A stretch of DNA of 64,000 bases, taken from positions 1 through 64,000 of the forward strand of contig CAMWHE010000003.1 in assembly GCA_947173955.1 (NCBI GenBank), in the 5' to 3' direction. The notes beneath the pieces were generated by a model. It worked only from the letters and a program-made list of their open reading frames with translations, was not told the DNA's origin and made no database searches. This document shows positions 45,580-53,784 of the stretch, piece after piece. The translations under genes were made by a program, and so were the position numbers. Position 1 is the stretch's first letter; each line of letters opens with the position of its first letter. Source of the stretch: an uncultured Bacteroidales bacterium. Lineage in GTDB: Bacteria > Bacteroidota > Bacteroidia > Bacteroidales > Muribaculaceae.

Positions 45580-45815
45580 TTCTTTGATATTACAGGTGAT
45601 TGGCCTCATTGAGGCCGGGTTAAAGATTGGCAAATTAAACTTTCAACAGGCAAAAATACAAAAAAAATCCGACACCGCCACTACTCCCTGTCCCTCCGCC
45701 TCTTAAATAATCTTAACCCTCTCTTACCAACTTATCTCAGCGCATCAATCTCTGCACCGACCAACTACAATACTTTCATCTCTACATGTGAAACAATAAA
45801 TCTATCTTACAATCA

Positions 45816-46034
45816 TTAAAAATCATCTATCATATCATAATCGTCCTGCTCTTCATGGAAATCGTGGTAGGATTGGCTATTTCCATGATATCTATTACTA
45901 CTATGTGAGTTTGATGAATATCCACGATAATCACTTGGTTTTCCATTTGGTGCATCATTATCTTCCGTATTATGGAGTTTATTAAACAGCCAACGAAACA
46001 AAAAAGACTCACCAATATAATTCCAAAATTTCAT
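45816..46034 (-). CDS. small protein of unknown function downstream of the Shango-like cassette
   Basis: ORF 45816..46052 (78 aa; likely start MKFWNYIGESF at 46034); Ser/His/Tyr/Asp-rich tail; co-oriented in AT-rich island. Confidence 0.45.
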   Translation of the reverse strand: MKFWNYIGESFLFRWLFNKLHNTEDNDAPNGKPSDYRGYSSNSHSSNRYHGNSQSYHDFHEEQDDYDMIDDF

Positions 46035-46109: not shown

Positions 46110-48254
46110 CTATTGGGATAATAATTGATTGATTACATCGGTTTCTAAATATGTTTTAGCATATTCTAGATTCAATAAATTATCAGACAACAGATAATCG
46201 TATTTTTGATATGTTTTGTGTTGCCGTGGAAGTATTGAAGCTAATTTGGTGACATCAGGTTTATTAACTTTCCGTAGCCGCTCAATATCCTCTTCCGTCA
46301 AATTTGACACATAGAAACTTTCAAAATCGCATGATTTATTCAGACAATATTTTGCCAACAATGCCAATGTTCTGTTAGCCTTTGTTCCAGCCCAGTTGAA
46401 AAAATAGTTTTCATTACCATATTGCAGAAATGATGTTTTGTCAAGATTCTGGTGATGAAAGAATAGACGACTCTGATTAAGATGCTCTTTGGCTTGTGTA
46501 TGATCATCAAGATACGGATATATAGTGTCAGTCAAATATATCTTTTGCATCTTTTCAGCAATAATGCGGTCAATATCTATGCATTCTCCGGCAAATCTTG
46601 CCACTCCACCAGATTTAATATATGATACATATATCTTTGATGTTGCCTCATCAAAACTCTCTACAAGCCAGCGCATCCCAGACAATATAATCACTTTACC
46701 AATTTGCGGAATATACTGTATCATTCCTATACGTTTGGAGTTTGCCTTGTTGATTACAGTTAAATCGATAGGTGATACAAACGCGACATAGAAATCTGGG
46801 GATTTCAAAATTCTTTCACCTAACTTACCAACTACAATCTGTCCGGTATTGAGCTGCGAAATTACCTCATTATCGCCCAGAGATCTCAATAATTCAAGGA
46901 ATATTTCAGGGGTTACATTTTTGAATGCTCCATTTTGGCAAAGTAGTGTCCATCCTTCCTTGGGATAAAAACCTCCAAACTGAGCTATAACAGCCAATAT
47001 CTGTTGAATGAGTGTCGATAAATGATATCTGTTTATAGAGGGTGTCTCGTATTTGTGTTCGCGCATCAATTCTATAATCGCAATATTCTGTACAAGATTG
47101 CACCTTAAGTCGTACAACAATCCAGCATCGTTTCCTTCGATGGAAAATACTCGCAGGATAGAAGGCTCATTTCGTCTACCTGAGCGACCTAGCCTCTGTC
47201 TGAGTCCAGAAACGGATATTGCTGTACCAATTTGCGCTATGGATTTAACTTTGCCTATATCAATTCCCAATTCCAATGTAGAAGTGCAAAGAGCGGTTAT
47301 CGGATGCTCACCACGCTGTAAATCGCGTTCGACAGATTCACGTTCTATCTTAGATATACTACCGTGGTGCACTCTGAATTCATTGGGGACACCTTTCTCT
47401 TCGCACATATCCGATAACTGCACGGCAAATTCCTCCGTAATCCCACGACTATTGGCAAAAACAAGATTATTACTCCCGCGCAGATTTCTGTATATCTCCT
47501 GTGATATCGGGATGGAGGTATCTATGTCTTTAGTTGAGATATATTCTTTTACGAGTATTTTTATCTCATGATTACTTTCTCCCTGTTGAGGAATGGCACA
47601 CGGCATTGAACCATCATTACGAAGAAAATATTTTACAGCGTCATAATCTGAGAATGTTGCACTCATCGCTATCCGGGGTATATGGTGGTGTGTAACCTGT
47701 TCTATTCGTGCAAGGAGTGATTGCAATTGCTTACCTCTTTCAGTGCCTAAAAAAGAATGTAACTCATCAATGACTACATATTGCAGAGAAGAGAATGCTC
47801 CTATCACAAATCGCTCATGATTTATCAAAAATGATTCAAGTGATTCGGGGGTAATTATTACAATACCGCTAGGATTCTTCAGCGACCTAATCTTTCTATT
47901 AGCAGCAATATCGCCGTGCCAAGGAATAATATCTATCCCCATCTCGGCTGTCATATCTGAAAGTCGACGATATTGGTCATTTATAAGAGCTTTCAATGGG
48001 CTAATATATAGCACTTGATAGCCGGAAGCACCTCTGTCGGATAATATTGATGTTAATATGGGTAAAAAAGCAGCCTCAGTCTTCCCTCCTGCAGTTGACG
48101 CACTAATAATAACGTCGCTATTACCGGCAAGTACAAACGGTATGGCATTTTCCTGAATATCTTTTAGATCTGTCCAACCTTGCCGCCAAATCCAACGGCG
48201 AACGCGTTCATCAAGTAGATTAAATGAAACAGAAGACCTTGACATAAAAGTCAC
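46110..48254 (-). CDS. sngC: Lhr/BrxHI-like DExH helicase, Shango SngC-like
   Basis: 714 aa; 'ISASTAGGKTEAAFLP', 'VVIDELHSFLG', 'MSATFSD', 'GLRQRLGRSGRR'; 4-nt overlap with upstream ATPase gene. Confidence 0.82.
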   Translation of the reverse strand: MTFMSRSSVSFNLLDERVRRWIWRQGWTDLKDIQENAIPFVLAGNSDVIISASTAGGKTEAAFLPILTSILSDRGASGYQVLYISPLKALINDQYRRLSDMTAEMGIDIIPWHGDIAANRKIRSLKNPSGIVIITPESLESFLINHERFVIGAFSSLQYVVIDELHSFLGTERGKQLQSLLARIEQVTHHHIPRIAMSATFSDYDAVKYFLRNDGSMPCAIPQQGESNHEIKILVKEYISTKDIDTSIPISQEIYRNLRGSNNLVFANSRGITEEFAVQLSDMCEEKGVPNEFRVHHGSISKIERESVERDLQRGEHPITALCTSTLELGIDIGKVKSIAQIGTAISVSGLRQRLGRSGRRNEPSILRVFSIEGNDAGLLYDLRCNLVQNIAIIELMREHKYETPSINRYHLSTLIQQILAVIAQFGGFYPKEGWTLLCQNGAFKNVTPEIFLELLRSLGDNEVISQLNTGQIVVGKLGERILKSPDFYVAFVSPIDLTVINKANSKRIGMIQYIPQIGKVIILSGMRWLVESFDEATSKIYVSYIKSGGVARFAGECIDIDRIIAEKMQKIYLTDTIYPYLDDHTQAKEHLNQSRLFFHHQNLDKTSFLQYGNENYFFNWAGTKANRTLALLAKYCLNKSCDFESFYVSNLTEEDIERLRKVNKPDVTKLASILPRQHKTYQKYDYLLSDNLLNLEYAKTYLETDVINQLLSQ

Positions 48255-49573
48255 AATTTGAATGACGCAAAGGCATCATCACCTGTTTTGCTTTGCAATC
48301 CGCTTTGTTGTGCGATAATATTCCCTACTTCGGTCGGTTCTATATCATGTACGATTTCGATTTGTTCAATCATATCCGACCATTTCAAGTTGGGATATTG
48401 TTCCAGCATTGACAACAAATCCAAAAAGCCTTTAATTGTGTTGCGTGGCGTGCGAAAATAGCAGTCCCCGATTTTTTTTGCACAATGATTTAGATATGCC
48501 AGCAATGCATCATCCGGAACTAAATACTTGCTCTCATCTCCATACGCGAATATATTGCGCAAGTTCATCAATAGCAGATATAACTCCTCTTTTGAAAGGT
48601 TCGCCAGACGTAATACAGTCGAGTTATAGTCAGTAAGTCCGAGATTTTTTGAGAAACTGTTTTCAGCTAACCTTGATTTTAAAGCTTCGTAGCTATATAA
48701 ACCTCTGTTGCCATCAGTCAGGAACTCCGGTGTTCCAGACATTATGAATCCTATATGCGACAAAGTACCTTGAAGTGTATTATTTAGGATATTCAATATT
48801 TCTTCATAGTTTGCCTTGCGGGATACACTGTTGGATATTTTGTAGAGATTGACCATTTCATCTAAACAAACTAATAATCCGTTATATCCTGCCTTTTGCA
48901 TTAAAATGGAGTAGAGCTTCAACGTATTGAAGAATGACGAATCATTAATGAATTCACGTACACCGAGGTCGCGCATGCTATCGGTCTTTGTTGTGTACTC
49001 GGCTCTTAGCCATCGTAAAACGCGGTCTTTCAATATGTCATCGCAGGAATCATACGCAGTCCAATACATATTAATGATCTGTGCGAATGTATATCCACCT
49101 GGATATTCATTCAAGTCGCTCAATTGCTCATATATGACTGCTCCAACATCGCGGTTGTTTTGCTCAGCTTTCGCTCTAGCTTTTGATATAAATTTTTCAA
49201 GAATATTCGGCAATGCATTCCCGTCTTGTTTTGTACGGGTGGATATAGAAGAAATCAACTCCGATAATAAAATCCGTGCGAGGCCGTCTGTTCCATGCAG
49301 TCGTTTGGTTGGTGACAGATCGGCATTCATTGTTACTAATCCTTTCTGCAACGCAATACTTCTCACAAGCGACAGGAAGAAAGTTTTGCCGGAGCCATAC
49401 TCACCGATAACAAAACGGAATGATGTGCCGCCCTCCGAAATAGTGGCAATATCATTAACAAATGATTTCAACTCTTCGCTTCGTCCTACTTGAATATGCT
49501 GTAATCCGAGTCGTGGCACAACACCGCTTTTCAACGATTGGATAATAGTTTCTCGTTCTTTGGGTTTTATCAT
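48251..49573 (-). CDS. sngB: BrxD/DUF2791-like P-loop ATPase, Shango SngB-like
   Basis: 440 aa; 'RFVIGEYGSGKTFFLSLVRSIA' Walker A, 'GLLVCLDEMVNLYK' Walker B; 4-nt overlap with the TerB-N/C gene. Confidence 0.82.
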   Translation of the reverse strand: MIKPKERETIIQSLKSGVVPRLGLQHIQVGRSEELKSFVNDIATISEGGTSFRFVIGEYGSGKTFFLSLVRSIALQKGLVTMNADLSPTKRLHGTDGLARILLSELISSISTRTKQDGNALPNILEKFISKARAKAEQNNRDVGAVIYEQLSDLNEYPGGYTFAQIINMYWTAYDSCDDILKDRVLRWLRAEYTTKTDSMRDLGVREFINDSSFFNTLKLYSILMQKAGYNGLLVCLDEMVNLYKISNSVSRKANYEEILNILNNTLQGTLSHIGFIMSGTPEFLTDGNRGLYSYEALKSRLAENSFSKNLGLTDYNSTVLRLANLSKEELYLLLMNLRNIFAYGDESKYLVPDDALLAYLNHCAKKIGDCYFRTPRNTIKGFLDLLSMLEQYPNLKWSDMIEQIEIVHDIEPTEVGNIIAQQSGLQSKTGDDAFASFKL

Positions 49574-52500
49574 ATCAACTGTTCTTTATAATCCAATATA
49601 ACATATATATTTTCACCGTCGTCTTCGATAACAGCATCATCAACTTTCTCATATGCGAAATCGTTGATTTGTTCCAACACTGCGCCCAGCATCAATCTAT
49701 GTTCTTTGCACAGTCTCTCGACCTCTGAGCGCTCCCACACTTCTTTGGTTAGCAGCATTCTCAATATCTCCAGCCATGAACTTGTTGGGTCATTCGTTTC
49801 TTTATTTTGAGATGTCGTAGAGTCTTCTTCGACAAATATGTTCGAAAGTAACTCCTGTGCAGCCTTTGTTTGCTGTTCAAAGATACGGAGTTTTTGTGGA
49901 TTTATAATAACATTTGGCGGTAGAGATGGTTGCGAATATGTTGGTTTGCCATTTATAGTAAATTCTAAGGCATCTGATTTTTTCTCTACAACTGCAAAGC
50001 CATCGCTGTCAGTGAGTAATCTGTGAATTTGGGAATGTATATTTTCTGACTCGATACCCAACAATGGCAATACTTTTTTTAGACATTCTATTCTTTTGGG
50101 ATTAATATCGCCGTTTATACAAGCGAGTTGAATTAGCGCATTACCTATTTTGGTTTGTTGTTCGCCTGTCAAAGAAACAATAGCACTCTTTATGTTCTTA
50201 TCAATCGAAGGTCTTTTTGACATAAACCGCCAACGAATAACAGCTGTCAAATGTATATGATTTCCAATTGTATTATTATAAGATTTTAGTTGTTGTGAGA
50301 CAAATACAAAGTCTTTGTCAGTTGCTTTGTCTGCAAGCACAATATACGATGCTAACTTTATAAACAGATCTGATCTATCATATTTAATAGTAGATTTAAG
50401 GGGATAATGTTCTGCATTTTTGTATATAACACAGATATCGCCAATTTTAAAGCGTTTTCTGTCTATATCATAATTGGGTACAATGCCATACCCCAAACGA
50501 TTCAGACCTCTAATAATGGAATCTGCATATATTTTATGTATACTTTTATCGTCTTTACATTCGTATTCCCATAATGTTAGCAGCCAATCTACCGGTGTGA
50601 TTAAAAAGTTCTCTGATAACATTTTATTCTCAATATTCACTGTCAGTGTTTGGATCTTTGGATGCTCTCGTACATCTATGTCGTCAGGCAATGCCATAAT
50701 TGCAGCAATGGTTTCATTGCCGTTATAACGCTCCTTTATCTGGTTAAAGCATCTAAATTTAGACTCAACATACCAATAGCAGTTTCTAATAGCATTATGT
50801 ACATTCCATAGATCATTCGGTAGAGCTTCTATTTTATAATATAAGTTGACCTTCTCTGAATTAAAAAAACCGTAATTGTAATAATAACTGATTGATGAGA
50901 TCTTTGTTATAATTTCAAAATTTAAATCGAGATTTTGATATAAACACATAAAGTTGTCCATAAAATATTGTTGTGCAACCGAAGTATATATTGATGGAAC
51001 AAGTTTTGTAATATTATATATCTCTTTAGCTATATCAAAAGCATCTTCCGGAGATAGAGCTCTTTTATTTGCAATTTTCTGTGCGATATAATAGTTTGTG
51101 TATGTACTACAATCTCCTAATATTCCATTTATATCAAATTCTTCATGTGTTTCACGAAAATATTTAATAATCGTATTCCCAATAAAATCGCATAATTTTT
51201 GTTGTACTCGTCTATCGTTGTAGGTAGAGTTTCTATTTAAAGAATGATACAAGCTTATTATATCATGCAATATTGATTTCCGTTCCGACATCTTTGTTTG
51301 TGGATCAATAAACATACGTATTTCACATCCGTAAAGATAAAACATTAAAATCTCAACAGGGACATCTGATGCTTGTACATTTCCGGATAGCCACATCAAA
51401 TACTCGTGTCGCCAAGCGGGTGACATATCATTATATGAACAAAAGATGTTCTTACTATTTGAATCACCTACAGGTAAATCCGGATTAAGTACGGGTCCAA
51501 AAATATAGGTTCCCTTGTATCCAAAATATGTGTTATCTCTAATTACATTATCCGGAAGACGGAAGCATTTACCAACGTAAAAGTTGCCTCGTGTAAGTTT
51601 TATGCCTTGTATATCTATGATTTCGTTTGATTTAATCCACTGGCATAATTGACCACGCGATTTATCAATGGACTTTAATGTATTCTCAGCATTCTCCTGG
51701 TTTAAGATTGAAACTACATTTAATAGAGTCCTATTTATATATTGGGTAACTATTGGATAATTCTCAGCCAATTTGTCAAGCTGCCTTTTTACCAGCGCAT
51801 AATCTTTATGCTTTTTATAATCATCTGCGAGATCATACATCAGTATAAAGGCATAGTTCGAATTTTCTTCAATATCCAAATAGTGTTCATTGAGAAATTC
51901 CATCTTGAAATAATGATAGAATTGTCTTTGCAAATGACTGGCTCTTCTTAATTCGTTACTAGAGTAGACATACATATGTTCCCAATATGGTACTCCGATT
52001 GCTGTATTGAGATCCTCTTCTGATTTGTTCTGTCGGGATTTTTCGAGGTTATCAATTTTGGCCGAAGTATTAGCCGGTGACGAGGTTGTTGTTTCACTTA
52101 CTGGATCATCATTTCGGCGCGAAGCTTGTATTGCGAGTCCATTAATGATGCGTGGAACAAGATCGGCTAATTCATAGATTATTTGTGATGCCGCAGGTGT
52201 AGTTATTTCAGGCTTAATATATTTTTTCGGTGTTGGAGTTTCGTATCTTTGTGCTTTTATTTTGTTATTAATTTGTTCTTTTTCAGAGGATAAAAGAGTA
52301 CAAACAATGTCATTGTTAGAAGTGCCGTTTTTAAGCAGGGTAATAATTTGTATGACTTGCGTACATTCCCTTTTTACAAAATCGCGTTTAGCGGTACTAA
52401 TACGGTTACCAGCAGTTTTTAAAATATAGTCATATAAATTAGTTGAATATACGTTGTTTTTTTTCCAATATTGAGCGTGAAATAATTGTATCCTATTGAT

Positions 52501-52800
52501 AATATTGTATTTGCAAGTAATATCTGATGAGAGAGCCACCTCTATAAAAGATTGAATTTTATCACCTTGTTGCTTACTTATTTCAAAATAATTGGGATAA
52601 ACATTTGAAGTGGAGTTATATTTATCATATAGATTATTCTGGTTGTAATTTTGGCATTTAGAGTCTACATTTACTTCTTTTTTTACAAATAATGCAAATA
52701 TTACCCCTATTGATATAGCGATACATAATCCTATGAGAAAGTATGGTACTATTATAGTAAACAATGATAAAATTAATATTATGAAGGATAGATTTTTCAT
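49570..52800 (-). CDS. sngA: TerB-N/TerB/TerB-C protein with N-terminal hydrophobic hairpin, Shango SngA-like
   Basis: 1076 aa; N-term 'LSFIILILSLFTIIVPYFLIGLCIAISIGVIFALF'; TerB-N-like 'PAWRHEYLMWLSGN...VEILMFYLYGCEIRMFID'; TerB-C-like 'WERSEVERLCKEHRLMLGAVLEQINDFAYEKVDDAVIEDDGENIYV'. Confidence 0.8.
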   Translation of the reverse strand: MKNLSFIILILSLFTIIVPYFLIGLCIAISIGVIFALFVKKEVNVDSKCQNYNQNNLYDKYNSTSNVYPNYFEISKQQGDKIQSFIEVALSSDITCKYNIINRIQLFHAQYWKKNNVYSTNLYDYILKTAGNRISTAKRDFVKRECTQVIQIITLLKNGTSNNDIVCTLLSSEKEQINNKIKAQRYETPTPKKYIKPEITTPAASQIIYELADLVPRIINGLAIQASRRNDDPVSETTTSSPANTSAKIDNLEKSRQNKSEEDLNTAIGVPYWEHMYVYSSNELRRASHLQRQFYHYFKMEFLNEHYLDIEENSNYAFILMYDLADDYKKHKDYALVKRQLDKLAENYPIVTQYINRTLLNVVSILNQENAENTLKSIDKSRGQLCQWIKSNEIIDIQGIKLTRGNFYVGKCFRLPDNVIRDNTYFGYKGTYIFGPVLNPDLPVGDSNSKNIFCSYNDMSPAWRHEYLMWLSGNVQASDVPVEILMFYLYGCEIRMFIDPQTKMSERKSILHDIISLYHSLNRNSTYNDRRVQQKLCDFIGNTIIKYFRETHEEFDINGILGDCSTYTNYYIAQKIANKRALSPEDAFDIAKEIYNITKLVPSIYTSVAQQYFMDNFMCLYQNLDLNFEIITKISSISYYYNYGFFNSEKVNLYYKIEALPNDLWNVHNAIRNCYWYVESKFRCFNQIKERYNGNETIAAIMALPDDIDVREHPKIQTLTVNIENKMLSENFLITPVDWLLTLWEYECKDDKSIHKIYADSIIRGLNRLGYGIVPNYDIDRKRFKIGDICVIYKNAEHYPLKSTIKYDRSDLFIKLASYIVLADKATDKDFVFVSQQLKSYNNTIGNHIHLTAVIRWRFMSKRPSIDKNIKSAIVSLTGEQQTKIGNALIQLACINGDINPKRIECLKKVLPLLGIESENIHSQIHRLLTDSDGFAVVEKKSDALEFTINGKPTYSQPSLPPNVIINPQKLRIFEQQTKAAQELLSNIFVEEDSTTSQNKETNDPTSSWLEILRMLLTKEVWERSEVERLCKEHRLMLGAVLEQINDFAYEKVDDAVIEDDGENIYVILDYKEQLI

Positions 52801-52956
52801 GGCTTAATATAGTCCAGCTAAATCAATGGGTTAGTACATACTGTCATAGTGGGGGTGGGCTCAGGGGTCTGGAACGAGAGAGAAAAGCAGAGAGAACTAT
52901 TTATGGACAAAGTTACAATTAAATGTCGGATTTATATAAGGGTTTAAGCGGCGATT

Positions 52957-53036
52957 ATAGCTAAGACAGCTTTTATAGCTAAGATAGCCTGGATGGCTGT
53001 TATAGCGGCAATAGCCGGGGCTGATAGCTTGGATAG
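52957..53036. repeat. 9-nt-period tandem array (consensus ATAGCTAAG), 3' flank of four-helix-bundle gene
   Basis: ATAGCTAAG|ACAGCTTTT|ATAGCTAAG|ATAGCCTGG|ATGGCTGTT|ATAGCGGCA|ATAGCCGGG|(GCTG)|ATAGCTTGG|ATAG. Confidence 0.85.
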
Positions 53037-53058: not shown

Positions 53059-53613
53059 CTATTTTTGCTTGTCGCGGTAGTCGCGGCGAGCGCGATGCAT
53101 CTGTTCTTTGATGCCTCCGATCCGTAGGAAGTCGGATTTGACGAGTTCGATGAGTTTGCTGAGCATGGCGATGGTCTGATGGATGAGGGTGACGATGAGG
53201 TTGCAGAGTTCTTCGTCGTTGAGGCGCGGGATAAGGGCTGTGTAGTAGGCGGTGTCGTTTTCGCGTCGGCAGGTGTCAATGAGGCGTGCCATGCGTGGCT
53301 GCCGGAGATCCCAGATGGGTATGTGGCGCGTGCGCATGTAGTCAAGGTAGTCGTTGAGTAGTTCGTGAAGGCTGCCGCGTGCGACTCCGTACAGCTTGAT
53401 CTCGATCTCGGCGGATGCGGCGGCATCGGCTCGTCCCTCGACGATGTTCTGTTTACCGGAGCGGGCTGCCTGGAGCATCTGGTCGTAGGTGCGGTCGGAT
53501 TTTGATATGTGGGTCTGGAGGAAGTGGTAGGTAAGGTCATAGATTGCCTCGGACTTGCGGAAGGCGCGGAGAGTGCGGTAGGATGTCTTCGGGCGGGCAA
53601 ATTCCTGACTCAT
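53059..53613 (-). CDS. four helix bundle protein with suffix domain (S23/IVS-like family)
   Basis: 184 aa; 'SEAIYDLTYHFLQTHISKSDRTYDQMLQAARSGKQNIVEGRADAAASAEIEIKLYGVARGSLHELLNDYLDYMR'. Confidence 0.85.
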   Translation of the reverse strand: MSQEFARPKTSYRTLRAFRKSEAIYDLTYHFLQTHISKSDRTYDQMLQAARSGKQNIVEGRADAAASAEIEIKLYGVARGSLHELLNDYLDYMRTRHIPIWDLRQPRMARLIDTCRRENDTAYYTALIPRLNDEELCNLIVTLIHQTIAMLSKLIELVKSDFLRIGGIKEQMHRARRDYRDKQK

Positions 53614-53656
53614 ACCTGATTGTTTTTTTGACTGAGAAGTGGATGTTTTTTATATA

Positions 53657-53688
53657 GTAGCTAAAATAGCTAACATAGCTATTATAGG
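53657..53688. repeat. 9-nt-period tandem array (GTAGCTAAA|ATAGCTAAC|ATAGCTATT|ATAGG), 5' flank of four-helix-bundle gene
   Basis: direct reading of the sequence; same unit as the array at 52957. Confidence 0.8.
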
Positions 53689-53784
53689 AGGTTTGGCAAA
53701 GATACGAATTAATGTGGGAGTTTTGATTGGGACGGTTTGCTTTTTTTGCGTATCTTTGCGGATGATCACTCAGCATACATCTCT

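Follow-up and report, generated by a model that had tools for sequence, protein, structure and literature searches.

A complete Shango operon between argS and rsmA

Three genes on the minus strand of the window—by which we mean the whole 64,000-nucleotide stretch of DNA analysed here, from an uncultured bacterium of the Muribaculaceae—almost certainly constitute a Shango cassette (Table 1). As the best overall explanation, we consider it probable that they represent a complete, horizontally acquired anti-phage operon, working along the lines proposed below. Protection against phage is known from other copies of Shango and, by analogy, is predicted for this one; the system is ordinary in kind, its SngA component having diverged.

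Minus-strand genes of 1076, 440 and 714 amino acids had been described in the initial annotation, which read them as a Bacteroidales Shango locus and proposed a search with Shango profiles. All three open reading frames are open and intact at the coordinates of Table 1, and PADLOC places a Shango model top for each protein: PDLC03958 for SngA (154 bits, 3e-45, residues 380–1075), PDLC03959 for SngB (551 bits, 7e-166, full length) and PDLC03960 for SngC (747 bits, 5e-225, residues 8–710 of 714); E-values in this range, 3e-45 to 5e-225, exclude a chance match. The runner-up families, BrxD for SngB (152 bits) and BrxHI for SngC (362 bits), score far lower. Pfam recognises TerB_N and TerB_C in SngA (both above the gathering score), BrxC_BrxD in SngB (PF10923; 461 bits, 5e-138), and DEAD plus Helicase_C in SngC. 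SngA with TerB_N and TerB_C, SngB, SngC and the adjacent, co-directional A-B-C order are thus all present, with the proteins lying inside the families originally named for them, and the cassette in none with a demonstrated non-defence role.

The motifs picked out by the initial annotation (GEYGSGKT, LDEM, STAGGKT, DELH, QRLGRSGRR) are all found; in wide alignments spanning Bacteroidota and Proteobacteria, the columns of the Walker A and B motifs of SngB, and those of TAGGKT, DELH and QRLGRSGRR in SngC, are invariant or near-invariant. Some details need amending. The ATPase does match the family given as DUF2791, now named BrxC_BrxD; SngC is indeed a helicase, but the label ‘Lhr-like’ is loose, its match to the Lhr winged-helix being sub-threshold in Pfam. 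Of the two 4-nt overlaps reported between consecutive genes, the ATGA shared by sngA and sngB is real, being kept in close relatives and present in many others, but that between sngB and sngC depends on a GTG start. Since the SngC start in close relatives corresponds to an internal ATG at 48245 (MSRSSVSF...), a few bases past the sngB stop, the second overlap is probably an artefact of ORF calling; the true start is likely this ATG, giving a predicted protein of 711 amino acids. Upstream of sngA, the candidate promoter element TAACTTTG is accompanied by no good -33 element.

Table 1. Features of the Shango locus; positions are those of the window, or residues of SngA where so marked.
Feature	Position	Strand	Description
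sngA	49570..52800	-	1076 aa; PADLOC SngA 3e-45; Pfam TerB_N + TerB_C
sngB	48251..49573	-	440 aa; BrxC/BrxD-family AAA+ (ORC/Cdc6-like) ATPase; PADLOC 7e-166; PF10923 5e-138
sngC	46110..48254	-	714 aa as ORF; SF2 DEAD/DEAH-family helicase; PADLOC 5e-225; DEAD + Helicase_C
Small gene	45816..46034	-	72 aa (MKFWNYIGESFLFRWLF...HEEQDDYDMIDDF); 75 bases behind sngC
Candidate Bacteroidota -7 promoter element	52908..52915	-	TAACTTTG; ~108 bases ahead of sngA ATG; weak
Inserted segment	45676..53050		low GC; boundaries approximate
SngA, predicted membrane helix	residues 1-42
SngA, extra helical region	residues ~70-380
SngA, TerB_N	residues 449-584
SngA, TerB-like core	residues ~797-935
SngA, TerB_C	residues 966-1075

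Architecture of SngA

Gammaproteobacterial SngA proteins (about 750–780 amino acids) contain TerB_N, TerB and TerB_C by Pfam, and their N-terminus is often hydrophobic. Working along the window protein from its N-terminus, we see a membrane helix predicted by hydropathy and AlphaFold, followed by ~300 extra residues ahead of TerB_N—an addition shared with its closest relatives; some 380 N-terminal residues lie outside the PADLOC SngA profile. Hydropathy predicts an N-terminal membrane helix in many SngA copies across phyla, the mini-proteins described below included, with some falling below threshold.

The TerB core itself (PF05099) has no Pfam match in the window SngA. Residues 797–935, which sit between TerB_N and TerB_C, align with the Pfam-recognised TerB of gammaproteobacterial relatives, and are modelled by AlphaFold as seven helices (pLDDT 85). 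A fold search with this region gave 2h5n, which we take to be a TerB-like protein, and 2ou3, named a tellurite resistance protein, as its sole confident matches (probability 1.00, TM 0.53–0.66, with E-values of only 0.02–0.1); the model supports a TerB fold for the predicted core. In the second TerB repeat, the acidic stretch ADGKIDPxE has become NGDINPKR, a similar change being seen in other Bacteroidota-type rows of the alignment. We infer from this that the metal site of the core has probably been lost, so that a metal-dependent step may be absent. The full-length AlphaFold model is of moderate quality (pLDDT 78, pTM 0.55), and a fold search with the whole chain returned helical-repeat noise only, apart from TerB; searches by sequence found no solved structure among relatives of SngA or SngB.

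Conservation of the three-gene unit

Searching with SngB alone, which tests the three-gene unit without presupposing it, yielded 80 loci from many phyla. Every one of them has a relative of SngA directly upstream. In 76, SngB is followed by an intact SngC, and in the remaining four the contig ends or the frame is broken; the sngA-sngB-sngC order therefore recurs in 76 of 80 loci.

Several of these loci have features of their own. In five (L014–L018; ‘mini-Shango’), the sngA slot encodes just a membrane helix and TerB_C (182–228 amino acids), followed by SngB and SngC, the latter with a C-terminal extension of ~140 amino acids in L014–L017; shortly downstream of sngC, PADLOC identifies a UG26 reverse transcriptase. 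A diversity-generating retroelement (DGR) was considered here and rejected: no template/variable repeat with A-biased changes lies beside the reverse transcriptase, which is UG26 by PADLOC. Close relatives of the window operon in two Alistipes/Rikenellaceae MAGs (L003 and L006) are preceded by genes for a helix-turn-helix protein, a PDC-S02 nuclease and an ATPase/HEPN-like protein, and lie with apparent relaxase and primase genes (judged by eye), surroundings that suggest a mobilizable element; L003 additionally has a DUF262-type, NsnA-like gene downstream. The gene immediately ahead of sngA in the Prevotella-type loci (L008–L012) is AbiGi-like (scored in L009; by sequence in L008).

Insertion site and horizontal origin

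The operon sits between argS and rsmA in a segment of 31–43% GC, against mostly 54–65% in its surroundings. In the nearest genus-mate searched (G301; argS 97% identical), one contig begins just before argS and a second begins with the same 21 bases, continuing through the equivalent of 45601–45675 into a decayed four-helix-bundle gene and then rsmA; provided that the two contigs adjoin, this is a probable empty site. SngB is absent from all seven genus-mates. It occurs in six of 197 other genomes of the family, at 54–62% identity and on a separate branch of the tree, and its closest copies (88–90%) are in MAGs labelled Alistipes, Rikenellaceae, Parabacteroides and Clostridia; with the nearest copies outside its own family, a horizontal arrival is indicated. 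Judged from these sequence comparisons—the GC step, the probable empty site, the absence from genus-mates and the closest kin outside the family—the insertion is recent and horizontal. No long flanking repeat was found at its ends, and no integrase was seen alongside.

Next to the segment, at 53059–53613 on the minus strand, is a four-helix-bundle gene (23S rRNA IVP-like, with the TIGR04258 suffix), with 9-base ATAGCTA-type repeats to either side of it (52955–53030 and 53655–53690). Its decayed relative at the G301 site is accompanied by TTATAAG-type repeats.

A small gene behind several defence genes

The 72-residue protein encoded behind sngC belongs to a family with the pattern MxFWNYIGEFFLFRWLFG ... 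DEQDDYDMMDDDF, with relatives in 29 of 397 genomes of the bacterial family, the window’s own included; none turned up outside it among 295 genomes sampled from the order. Comparing the loci of this gene (L147–L176), we find that copies directly follow type III restriction genes (identified with PADLOC in L150, L154 and L165, and from likeness to L154 in L168), GajB in a Gabija pair (L152), GIY-YIG/T5orf172 genes (L148, L153, L158 and L167) and a DUF2971 gene (L155). At L172, a DUF1016/YhcG nuclease gene is followed after ~157 bases by a copy with a broken frame. About half of all copies are solitary or have other neighbours. The association with defence genes is a lead from raw neighbour counts. 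A four-helix-bundle gene is found just ahead of the small gene at L169.

In two pairs of loci, L147/L148 (93% DNA identity) and L150/L155 (92%), likeness begins exactly at the start codon of the small gene and the genes upstream differ, so that cassettes seem to be exchanged at this point. It is possible, though we lean somewhat against it, that this small family, largely confined to the host’s bacterial family, caps unrelated defence operons and marks a cassette-exchange junction, acting as an accessory protein common to these operons or supplying the homology that guides exchange. If the pattern holds, a small gene at the cassette end would offer a way to search an abundant gut lineage for as yet unknown defence genes.

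Proposed mechanism

In the literature on Shango we found no description of a mechanism, despite its demonstrated anti-phage activity: the system cloned from P. aeruginosa PA14 reduces plating of several phages 10–100 fold, and that from E. coli reportedly acts on two phages (PMC10250203). BrxD is classed as an ORC/Cdc6 AAA+ ATPase, for which a role in loading or activating BrxHI has been proposed (PMC12839542), and a helicase tree groups SngC with BrxHI, DruE and DpdJ, possibly as a distinct SF2 clade (PMC12278908).

Taken as a whole, the following scheme is a serious possibility that we hold tentatively. SngA would be anchored at the inner membrane via its N-terminal helix, acting as sensor or scaffold, with its TerB_C tail docking SngB; SngB, as an ORC/Cdc6-type AAA+ ATPase, would then assemble the SngC helicase and load it onto phage DNA as this enters or replicates, and unwinding by SngC would block phage replication or packaging. 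The loading step is suggested by homology with the BrxD-BrxHI pair, and the retention of only TerB_C and a membrane helix in L014–L018 suggests TerB_C as the coupling part; docking and loading are both analogies, given that solved structures of SngA or SngB relatives were not found. As no nuclease was recognised in the operon, self-contained cleavage is less likely; inhibition by DNA remodelling, or together with host nucleases, is the likelier mode.

The relatives suggest SngB, SngC, TerB_C and the membrane helix as indispensable parts, and the N-terminal domain of SngA and the TerB metal site as exchangeable or degenerate ones; this comparison narrows the mechanism of Shango to testable deletions.

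Alternative explanations

That the cassette is a fragment or derivative of type 2 BREX is suggested by homology between the two ATPase-helicase pairs, visible in the BrxD and BrxHI scores (152 and 362 bits), but the Shango models reach 551 and 747 bits on the same proteins, SngA is present, and we saw no pglX, pglZ, brxC or pglW in the window (ORF list read throughout, HMMs run on the cassette); with lower scores and core genes missing, a BREX remnant is highly improbable and was rejected. An operon for DNA repair or Ter-type stress, with phage defence incidental, would fit the naming of TerB domains after tellurite resistance and the distant kinship of SngC with ligase-associated repair DEXH helicases (TIGR04121: 228 bits, not reaching the cut-off of 850). 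It is nonetheless quite unlikely: a patchy distribution, horizontal transfer and absence from genus-mates suit defence, and Shango homologues protect against phage (PMC10250203).

The target could also be other than phage. Related SngB proteins occur on 685 plasmid records, mostly conjugative, with no match in phage records (a phage-borne Shango was rejected on this ground), so Shango may join in conflict between elements; exclusion of plasmids or conjugative elements as the main role of the window copy is still unlikely, for published tests show phage inhibition and many phage defence genes are commonly plasmid-carried. We regard it as similarly improbable that the functional unit here is four genes, with the 72-residue protein a required component. 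Its gene is on the same strand, close behind sngC, and the protein family is conserved in the host’s bacterial family; against this, the gene is absent behind sngC from the other Shango loci of the SngB search, including operons with ~90% identical SngB, and elsewhere its relatives stand alone or come after genes of Gabija, type III restriction or other kinds. Its membership of Shango itself is not supported.

Comparison with known systems

With Shango of P. aeruginosa PA14 (cDHS1) and E. coli, the window operon shares the same three families, their order and the ATPase and helicase motifs, as well as the membrane helix seen in many copies; it differs in standing alone between argS and rsmA, outside any defence island. 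Compared with gammaproteobacterial systems, its SngA has 1076 rather than about 750 residues, with the extra helical region, and a predicted TerB core below Pfam detection that lacks the acidic motif. Mini-Shango likewise has SngB and SngC, and its TerB_C protein too carries a membrane helix, but it is without TerB_N or a TerB core, has a longer SngC in four of five loci, and is followed by the UG26 reverse transcriptase.

Further afield, BrxD-BrxHI of BREX type 2 is a homologous ATPase-helicase dyad for which helicase loading is proposed, as it is here for SngB-SngC; unlike that system, the window has SngA, lower BrxD/BrxHI scores and no BREX core genes. The helicases of Hachiman, Druantia and Dpd (HamB, DruE and DpdJ) are, like SngC, SF2 helicases of defence systems, whereas SngC has other partners and the cassette is without a HamA-type nuclease.
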